Positions 14,494 through 16,800 of a stretch of DNA of 64,000 nt are shown here, piece by piece. The notes under the pieces were generated by a model that saw only the letters and a list, made by a program, of their open reading frames with translations, ran no database searches and was not told the DNA's origin. Each line of letters opens with the position of its first letter. The first letter of the stretch is position 1. Position numbers and translations under genes: made by a program. Source of the stretch: Magnetococcales bacterium (GTDB lineage: Bacteria > Pseudomonadota > Magnetococcia > Magnetococcales > Magnetaquicoccaceae); the NCBI GenBank assembly GCA_011089965.1, contig JAANAU010000006.1:1-64000 (forward strand), read 5' to 3'.

Positions 14494-15508
14494 CGATCCG
14501 TTCCACGGTAAAACCGGCATCCTGGATCATCTGGATGGTTTTGTCCGCCCCATGGCCTCCGGTATTGAGATACCCCTCGGCAAACAGCGAATTGGCCGGA
14601 TAGAGGGCCAATGCCTCCAGAGAGCGCAGATTGACCTCACGTCCGCCCGCAGCCCGCACCTCAGCCGACGGATTCAAAAACCGGAACAGACACAAGGCCC
14701 GCAAACAGGCTTCCGGGGTCAGACGCCGCTGCTCGCCCAACGCCGCACCCGGGGCATGGACATAGAAATTGACCGGAATCGAACGGGCATCCAGACGGTT
14801 CAGGGTCAACGCCACTTCCACGATCTCCTCCGGCCCTTCCCCCATGCCGATGATCAGACCGCTGCACACCTCCAGACCGACGCTGCGCGCAGCATCCAGA
14901 GTGGCCACCCGGTCGGCATAGGTGTGGGTGTGACAGATGGTGCCGTAACGGGACTCGGAGGTGTTGAGATTGTGATTGTACCGGTCCAGTCCGGCCTGTT
15001 TCAAACGGGCAGCCTGTCCGGAATCGATGAACCCTGCCGACAGACACACCTCCATGGGCAAGGTCGCTTTCAATCGCTGCACCAGAGCGGCCAGATGTTC
15101 CATCCGCTCCTCACCCGGACCACGCCCGGAGAGTACCAGACAATAACGATAGGCCCCGGAATCATATGCCCGACGCGCCTCCTCGAGGATGGTCTCATCC
15201 GACTTCATGCGATAGACCGGGACCGCACCCGAACTGCTGGTCGATTGCGCGCAGTAGTTGCAATCCTCGGGACACAGCCCGTTTTGCACATTGTTCAGGA
15301 TATGCACCCGCACCCCCAACCCAAAATGGTGGCGGCGCACCTGCAAGGCCGCATCCAGCAGCGGCAACAACGGCAGCTCCGGATCGGTCAAAACCCGCAA
15401 TGCCTGATCCCGGTTGATCTGTTCACCACGCAAGGCCGTGGCTGCCAATTGCTGACAAAACCGATTGGATTCGGGCATCCCTTCCACAGTCAAACCCCCT
15501 TCTGTCAC
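14480..15508 (-). CDS. bioB: Biotin synthase BioB
   Basis: Radical SAM enzyme that inserts sulfur into dethiobiotin. The 342-residue product carries the SAM-cluster motif CPEDCNYC, then YRYCLVLSGRGP, VCLSAGFID, the RYNHNLNTSE segment, GLEVCSGLIIGMGEG and a C-terminal GGREVNL with YLNTGG. First gene of the operon, with an AT-rich upstream gap shared with the divergent cas3 remnant. I see no BirA-type operator in the leader. Confidence 0.96.
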   Translation of the reverse strand: MTEGGLTVEGMPESNRFCQQLAATALRGEQINRDQALRVLTDPELPLLPLLDAALQVRRHHFGLGVRVHILNNVQNGLCPEDCNYCAQSTSSSGAVPVYRMKSDETILEEARRAYDSGAYRYCLVLSGRGPGEERMEHLAALVQRLKATLPMEVCLSAGFIDSGQAARLKQAGLDRYNHNLNTSESRYGTICHTHTYADRVATLDAARSVGLEVCSGLIIGMGEGPEEIVEVALTLNRLDARSIPVNFYVHAPGAALGEQRRLTPEACLRALCLFRFLNPSAEVRAAGGREVNLRSLEALALYPANSLFAEGYLNTGGHGADKTIQMIQDAGFTVERIDEHE

Positions 15509-15751
15509 GCACCTGGTGTTTTATACGCAAACCTGCCCCATTGTGCCCCAATCCACCTGTTCCCACCAGGGCTGGGACGCTCAAATCGCCATCCGGCCAC
15601 CTGATTGGTTGTATTATCCAGTGAATTTATTCCAGGCATATTCATGATTTTTTGAAAATCAGTTACATTAAAGAAGATTGACAAACCGGATGAATGGCTC
15701 TATTGTCACCAGAAATATCACCTAACAATTTCTTAATATATTATATAATAA
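15509..15751. promoter_or_regulatory. AT-rich divergent intergenic region (bioB / cas3 remnant)
   Basis: 243 bp without a gene. The right half (15640-15750) is strongly AT-rich and carries TATAAT-like text at 15744-15749, almost touching the cas3 start. This probably is the old cas-operon promoter region. Since the array now starts only 8 bp after the cas3 remnant, transcripts from here would run into the CRISPR repeats. No binding site could be assigned with confidence. Confidence 0.4.
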
Positions 15752-15925
15752 ATGAATACAACCAACCCAACCCGATACCATGCACACAGCGGCAATCCTT
15801 GGAATCAATGGCATCCATTGCCCGATCATCTGCGCGCCGTGGCTGCATTGGCCACAAGCTTTGCCCATGGTCTGCCCTGGGAAAAAGAGGCGGGACTGGC
15901 TGGCCTGCTGCACGATCTGGGCTGA
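15752..15925 (+). pseudogene. cas3: Truncated cas3 (first 57 codons of the HD-nuclease domain)
   Basis: The frame from ATG 15752 reads YHAHSGNPWNQWHPLPDHLR, then LATSFAHGLPWEKEAGLAGL and LHDLG followed by a stop. This is the N-terminal HD-nuclease start of a Cas3 protein, ending exactly at the His-Asp motif (His54, Asp55). A normal Cas3 is 700-900 residues. The helicase and all other cas genes are missing, and the first CRISPR repeat begins 8 bp after the stop. The simplest reading is one deletion that joined cas3 codon 57 to the array, removing the rest of the operon and the leader. Confidence 0.8.
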
Positions 15926-15933
15926 AAGCAGCC

Positions 15934-16618
15934 GTCTCACCCGGCCTCCGGGCCGGGTGCGGATTGAAACTTGGAATGCATTCATTTATATCTGCTGCAT
16001 GCCTGCGTCTCACCCGGCCTCCGGGCCGGGTGCGGATTGAAACACCATGATCATGGGACAATTCGGGCTGAAGGCCGAGTCTCACCCGGCCTCCGGGCCG
16101 GGTGCGGATTGAAACTCTCAAGCTTCGGACGCCATTGCCAGTCTCCTGGTGTCTCACCCGGCCTTCGGGCCGGGTGCGGATTGAAACATTTGAATGCCTC
16201 CTGTCCACGCCGGGCAACCCCGTCTCACCCGGCCTCCGGGCCGGGTGCGGATTGAAACCCACACAAGAGGCTGAACGTCTCCGGATATTATTGTCTCACC
16301 CGGCCTCCGGGCCGGGTGCGGATTGAAACCTATGTGCGCATGTGCGGCAGTTCACATGTTCGGGTCTCACCCGGCCTCCGGGCCGGGTGCGGATTGAAAC
16401 TTTCGGTTGGGGTGGCCCCGCCGGATGCCGGAGGGGGTCTCACCCGGCCTCCGGGCCGGGTGCGGATTGAAACGCACAACATCACCGGCAAGGACTCCTG
16501 CTCCGTGAGTCTCACCCGGCCTCCGGGCCGGGTGCGGATTAAAACAGTTCTTGCAATCTCCAAATTTCCTGTGGGATCGATGTCTCACCCGGCCTCCGGG
16601 CCGGGTGCGGATTGAAAC
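15934..16618 (+). CRISPR. CRISPR array, 10 repeats of 37 nt and 9 spacers (type I-C-like repeat)
   Basis: Repeats start at 15934, 16007, 16079, 16151, 16222, 16293, 16364, 16437, 16509 and 16582; spacers are 34-36 nt. Each repeat is GTCT, a 9-bp stem (CACCCGGCC/GGCCGGGTG) around a 4-nt loop, then CGGATTGAAAC. Processing at the stem base would leave an 11-nt handle, as known for type I-C. Repeat 4 has loop TTCG instead of TCCG; repeat 9 has A for G in the handle. The handle orientation implies plus-strand transcription. No adaptation, Cascade or complete cas3 gene is present, so it is an orphan array here. Confidence 0.97.
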
Positions 16619-16644: not shown

Positions 16645-16680
16645 CAAAAAACCCCGCAAGCCTTGATTCTTGCGGGGTTT
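16645..16680 (-). terminator. Rho-independent terminator after tRNA-Leu
   Basis: A 12-bp stem (aaaccccgcaag / cttgcggggttt) with an 8-nt loop. Read on the minus strand it is followed by seven T residues, so it terminates the tRNA-Leu transcript. On the plus strand it lies 30 bp after the last CRISPR repeat and, with a weaker T tail, could also end pre-crRNA. Confidence 0.85.
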
Positions 16681-16713: not shown

Positions 16714-16800
16714 TGGTGCCCACGCCCGGAATCGAACCGGGACGACCTTGCGGTCAGCGGATTTTAAGTCCGATGCGTCTACCTGTTCCGCCACGAGGGC
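16714..16800 (-). tRNA. tRNA-Leu (anticodon UAA)
   Basis: An 87-nt cloverleaf with encoded CCA. Anticodon stem CGGA/TCCG around loop CTTAAAA gives anticodon TAA, for leucine UUA codons. The T arm is CCGGG-TTCGATT-CCCGG-like, and a long variable arm (CTGACCGCAAGGTCGT region) is present as expected for class II tRNA. The acceptor stem has one T-T mismatch at the fifth pair. The terminator follows 34 bp downstream. Confidence 0.95.

Follow-up and report, generated by a model that had tools for sequence, protein, structure and literature searches.

The CRISPR locus identified in the analysed window (a stretch of 64,000 nucleotides from a Magnetococcales bacterium) is probably the residue of a dismantled type I-C locus, in which a deletion of about 8.3 kb left a leaderless relic array next to a fragment of cas3, with part of an operon of the same kind retained on another contig of the assembly (C46). 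The locus is located between bioB and a tRNA-Leu(TAA) gene, and it appears to be a conventional CRISPR system that was broken up, not a novel type of system. The array itself (15934-16618, forward strand) comprises ten repeats of 37 nt (GTCTCACCCGGCCTCCGGGCCGGGTGCGGATTGAAAC) and nine spacers of 34-36 nt, all of which are unique. The repeat is of the I-C type and is predicted to form a strong hairpin (-23.8 kcal/mol, z = -4.9); its end, GGATTGAAAC, orients the array such that the leader side is the cas3 side. The same 37-nt repeat type is found in the I-C loci that are nearest to the Cas7 of C46, for instance GTTACACCCGGCCTCCGGGCCGGGTGAGGATTGAAAC in L059 and GCATCACCCGGCCTCACGGCCGGGTGCGGATTGAAAC in L118. 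Eight of the ten repeats are identical, with a single substitution in each of repeats 4 and 9, which bears out the sequence-only reading that the array is well conserved and implies that the loss is recent, or that the array is still selected or used by something. The assembly is a draft of 3.66 Mb in 80 contigs (98.9% complete, with about 1% contamination), and no second copy of the repeat was detected in it. As the only cas sequence adjacent to this bona fide repeat-spacer array is a 57-codon remnant of cas3, the array belongs among the orphan arrays.

The remnant is a 5' fragment of a type I-C cas3 gene (15752-15925, forward strand) that encodes 57 amino acids with the C-terminus GLLHDLG, followed by TGA, 8 bp before the first repeat. 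It had been described as ending at His-Asp; its length and position agree with that description, whereas its actual end is two codons further on, at His-Asp-Leu-Gly. The remainder of the HD nuclease and the entire helicase are lacking, intact relatives being about 764 amino acids long. Judged from profile and pairwise comparisons, the similarity of the remnant to Cas3 is far above chance. The best PADLOC match is Cas3c (E=7.6e-8), followed by Cas3 HD (E=1.2e-7), and the match to the NCBIfam cas3_HD profile (21.8 bits) is aligned from profile position 1, the start of the HD domain. The corresponding 57 residues of the Cas3 of an intact relative score just 32 bits, so the low score of the remnant is due to its length. 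Identity to the N-termini of intact I-C Cas3 proteins reaches 63% over 49 amino acids. The protein search, which had been named as a possible refutation, thus identifies the fragment as Cas3 of type I-C, and the possibility that it is not Cas3 is rejected by these matches.

To collect intact relatives, 84,980 species were screened with the C46 Cas7 as the query, which yielded 80 I-C loci. In the intact relatives with 37-nt repeats, the order of the locus is cas3-cas5-cas8c-cas7-cas4-cas1-cas2-leader-array, and the distance from the cas2 stop codon to the first repeat is 169-192 bp in 24 of 26 relatives, the two exceptions being 144 and 618 bp. Their leader, of about 178 bp, contains three conserved motifs: CGCGAACC, which lies no more than about 16 bp after the cas2 stop codon; GG(T/A)TCGCG, about 32 bp past the former; and GGTTCGCG, which is positioned at -55/-56 from the first repeat in nearly all relatives. 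These motifs are common to I-C loci of many phyla (37-nt-repeat loci L057-L136; e.g. positions 14156-14333 of L133), and CGCGAACC and GG(T/A)TCGCG constitute an inverted pair. The intact loci of Parasulfuritortus (L118), a member of Pseudomonadota (L133) and Gallionella (L105) resemble the Magnetococcales genes in the Cas3 N-terminus, Cas7c, Cas4, Cas1c, Cas2 and the repeat type; however, they possess a full operon and the leader with its three motifs, both of which are missing at the window array.

In comparison with these relatives, the window junction lacks about 8.3 kb, namely the rest of cas3, all genes through cas2, and the leader except for about 11 bp; in L118, cas3 codon 57 lies this distance, about 8.3 kb, from the array. 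The 11 bp in question (TGAAAGCAGCC, 15923-15933, forward strand) may be the terminal bases of the old leader, with the deletion junction at or just before them. They agree with the leader ends of L133 and L065 at 8 of 11 positions, but the support is weak, as 165 of 5000 segments drawn at random from the window match the whole set of leaders equally well. None of the three conserved motifs precedes the array. GGTTCGCG does not occur at 15500-15933, and CGCGAACC is matched with one mismatch at 15526, a position that precedes the cas3 promoter region and is not part of the locus. The leader that relatives carry between cas2 and the array is therefore missing here, as it is after the cas2 gene of C46; the paired exact motif was found nowhere in the assembly, and neither was a contig with a leader plus a repeat. 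Given the absence of the motifs before the array, the junction is accounted for by a single deletion of about 8.3 kb. The earlier proposal that a single deletion removed the whole cas operon and the leader holds in this respect, but part of the operon is still present in the assembly, as C46 demonstrates. The undeleted arrangement that was to be sought in close strains was not found in ten genomes of the same genus, and of 200 genomes searched, no other contained the array repeat; with no undeleted sister locus, the deletion is deduced from the anatomy of intact relatives.

It is improbable that cas3 and the array were joined artificially, as a chimera of assembly or amplification, and that a normal operon resides on the chromosome. 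Such an artefact could arise in a draft of 80 contigs with some contamination, and a portion of the missing genes is indeed present on another contig, but C46 and the window do not share a single 15-mer, the junction contains no repeat that would mislead an assembler, and the join coincides with a plausible leader-repeat border and has the correct orientation. Moreover, the assembly contains neither the cas3-cas5-cas8c half of the operon (about 4.6 kb) nor the leader. For the signature protein Cas8c (Csd1) and for the crRNA endonuclease Cas5c (Cas5d), no matches to TIGR01863 and TIGR01876, respectively, were obtained at E<=1 in the assembly, and no cas3_core match above the cut-off was obtained for the Cas3 helicase, of whose gene only the 57 codons in the window were found. 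Of two weak cas3_core matches, the better one, on contig C50, was rejected as it corresponds to Mfd. In the relative L133, these models recover all three proteins (Csd1, 277.6 bits; Cas5, 127 bits; and the Cas3 core), hence the absences are meaningful at the assembly level, although the missing cas genes could be located on unbinned contigs.

The surviving part of the operon, on C46 (L025; 3184 bp), consists of a cas8c tail of just the last 27 or so codons followed by cas7, cas4, cas1 and cas2. Profile matches were obtained for Cas7c (306 bits) and Cas1c (500 bits), as well as for Cas4 and Cas2, so that a complete absence of type I-C cas genes from the genome is rejected. The search for a type I-C operon elsewhere in the genome was therefore successful in part: among the components of a functional I-C system, Cas7c, Cas4, Cas1c and Cas2 are present at a site away from the array, and Cas8c, Cas5c, Cas3 and the leader are not found. 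Likewise, the suggestion that the array might be served by cas genes elsewhere is supported for the adaptation genes and Cas7 but not for Cas5c, Cas8c and the Cas3 helicase. The similarity profiles of the cas3 fragment and the C46 Cas1 across 58 I-C loci agree with a Spearman coefficient of 0.78 (rank 4 of 59), against a median of 0.27 for loci evaluated on genes of their own; this agreement places the cas3 remnant and C46 in one I-C subclade and, most simply, in one ancestral locus.

A dispersed intergenic repeat begins right at the cas2 stop codon of C46, and no leader is present in the 82 bp assembled past cas2, which shows that this operon is cut off from a normal leader and array, at least over these 82 bp. 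The end sequence of C46 occurs twice on contig C27 (L053, 612-685 and 9697-9778), where it runs into a short repeat, and its occurrence elsewhere in the genome indicates that C46 belongs to the organism's own lineage. The dispersed repeat is palindromic and REP-element-like, with a GGGGGTCCAGGGGGATTATCC core; the genome has some 40 related sites, and the repeat lies downstream of genes, cas2 among them. These data also bear on the possibility of a mixed population, in which the deletion allele (contig C8) predominates and a minority of cells carry an intact operon, of which only C46 was assembled and binned. This possibility, although unlikely, is the most credible of the alternatives, as C46 is a short piece from the right subclade and the organism's own lineage, has no array attached, and would fit exactly within the missing stretch of an intact locus. 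However, a dispersed repeat follows cas2 directly on C46 where 26 relatives have a leader, so that C46 does not simply represent the intact allele, and no contig combines a leader with a repeat. In a two-step history, the dispersed repeat would have separated or displaced some of the operon genes, and a deletion would have brought cas3 and the array together; this would fit better than a simple intact allele in a subset of the cells.

For the preferred reading of a dismantled locus, the following course of events may be envisaged. The ancestral locus, cas3-cas5-cas8c-cas7-cas4-cas1-cas2-leader-array, would have been situated between bioB and tRNA-Leu, and the deletion, as judged from intact relatives, would have fused cas3 codon 57 with the leader's final bases. 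The array would thereby have kept its repeats and lost the leader together with the adaptation motifs and its own promoter, and part of an operon of this kind, either a separate copy or a displaced piece, would have persisted, leaderless, on C46. With the leader lost, the array should no longer gain spacers, and since Cas3, Cas5c and Cas8c were not found, both I-C crRNA processing by Cas5c and interference have most likely been lost, leaving the array as a relic. Any remaining transcription of the array would presumably start from the old cas3 promoter and pass through the 57-codon remnant. A sigma-70-like match upstream of cas3 (TTGACA-17-TATTGT, 15678-15706, forward strand) is a candidate driver of the array, with 10 of 12 consensus bases; the signal is weak, as two such sites were seen against 0.7 expected by chance. 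The earlier idea that the old cas promoter region now drives the array is thus upheld to the extent that a promoter-like sequence is kept there, and it could, as a guess, direct transcription through the remnant into the array. On the other side, a hairpin resembling an intrinsic terminator (16649-16680, reverse strand) lies downstream of tRNA-Leu, between the array and the tRNA gene, and it could also stop transcripts coming from the array side.

The tRNA-Leu(TAA) gene (16714-16800, reverse strand) and the neighbouring JAMM-WGR-MBL genes, of which the JAMM gene is beside the tRNA, are kept in eight genomes of the same genus, and the sequence beyond the tRNA varies by species, which marks an accessory site and suggests a hotspot. 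Judged by eye, one of the regions in L159, L160 and L162 holds an integrase-like ORF, and others hold ORFs similar to defence-type proteins. No close I-C Cas1 was found in the genomes of the same genus, whose Cas1 matches are only about 51% identical, and the nearest I-C relatives belong to other lineages; this distribution suggests that the I-C locus was horizontally acquired and subsequently decayed.

No spacer matched I-C cas genes better than shuffled spacers did, diverged relatives' genes being the targets, and anti-cas spacers were rejected as the cause of the operon loss on the basis of this comparison. In 182 kb of the own genome, no self-targeting spacers were detected except for a spacer-to-spacer match on contig C58. 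Spacers 3, 5, 6 and 8 have no exact 22-nt match among viral contigs, no degenerate match was found for spacer 1, and the sole phage match of the target search is at chance level. The match on C58 involves spacer 1 (15971-16006) and a spacer of a type III-A system (L027, 8962-9003), which agree at 26 of 34 positions, with a score of 18 versus a best of 16 in 300 shuffled sets. The differences are mostly at third codon positions (GMHSFISAACL vs GLQAFISGACL). It seems that the I-C and III-A systems both acquired a spacer from the same gene in related phages.

This type III-A system is encoded on contigs C58 and C24 of the same genome and includes Cas6, Csm2-5 of the Csm complex and a CARF protein. 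The two contigs (C24, L026; C58, L027) carry closely similar modules with Csm5, Cas6, the CARF protein and Cas1, and the two Cas1 proteins are nearly identical over their shared part. It is very doubtful that the array is still in use through processing or loading of its crRNAs by the III-A machinery. The good preservation of the array, the presence of a Cas6-bearing system in the genome, the agreement of the crRNA-handle bases (the last 8 nt of the repeat) at 7 of 8 positions (ATTGAAAC vs ATTGAGAC) and the origin of spacer 1 and one III-A spacer from homologous coding sequence are consistent with such use, but the rest of the two repeats is unrelated, their predicted folds differ greatly (-23.8 vs -8.0 kcal/mol for I-C and III-A, respectively), and the repeat of I-C systems is cleaved by Cas5c, not Cas6. 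Still more remote is a functional fusion, in which the cas3 promoter and the 57-codon remnant would supply a substitute leader transcript and the crRNAs would be taken over by III-A; if true, one immune system would have inherited the memory of another.

Orphan arrays have been described as products of cas loss (PMC8616872), and the window array, like the orphan I-F array of E. coli (PMC8616872), has intact repeats and no working cas operon alongside. It differs from the orphan arrays of that study in that 57 cas3 codons abut it and a partial matching operon exists elsewhere in the assembly, and from the E. coli I-F array in that none of its spacers matches cas genes. Leaderless arrays tend to be short, according to Alkhnbashi et al. 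2016 as cited in PMC12814883, and the window array too lacks a conserved leader and is short, with nine spacers; in contrast to the arrays as presented in that citation, the cause is visible here as a join from within cas3 to the end of the leader. In a full-text search of open-licence papers, no report of a cas3 remnant joined to an array was found. As a system, this orphan leaderless I-C array is not new, and it is the junction that is unusually readable. It provides a clear case of the origin of an orphan array, with both pieces of the broken locus in one assembly and a lost leader that is identifiable through motifs that hold across many phyla. The locus also lends itself to the question of whether an orphaned I-C array can be used by a type III-A system in the same genome.
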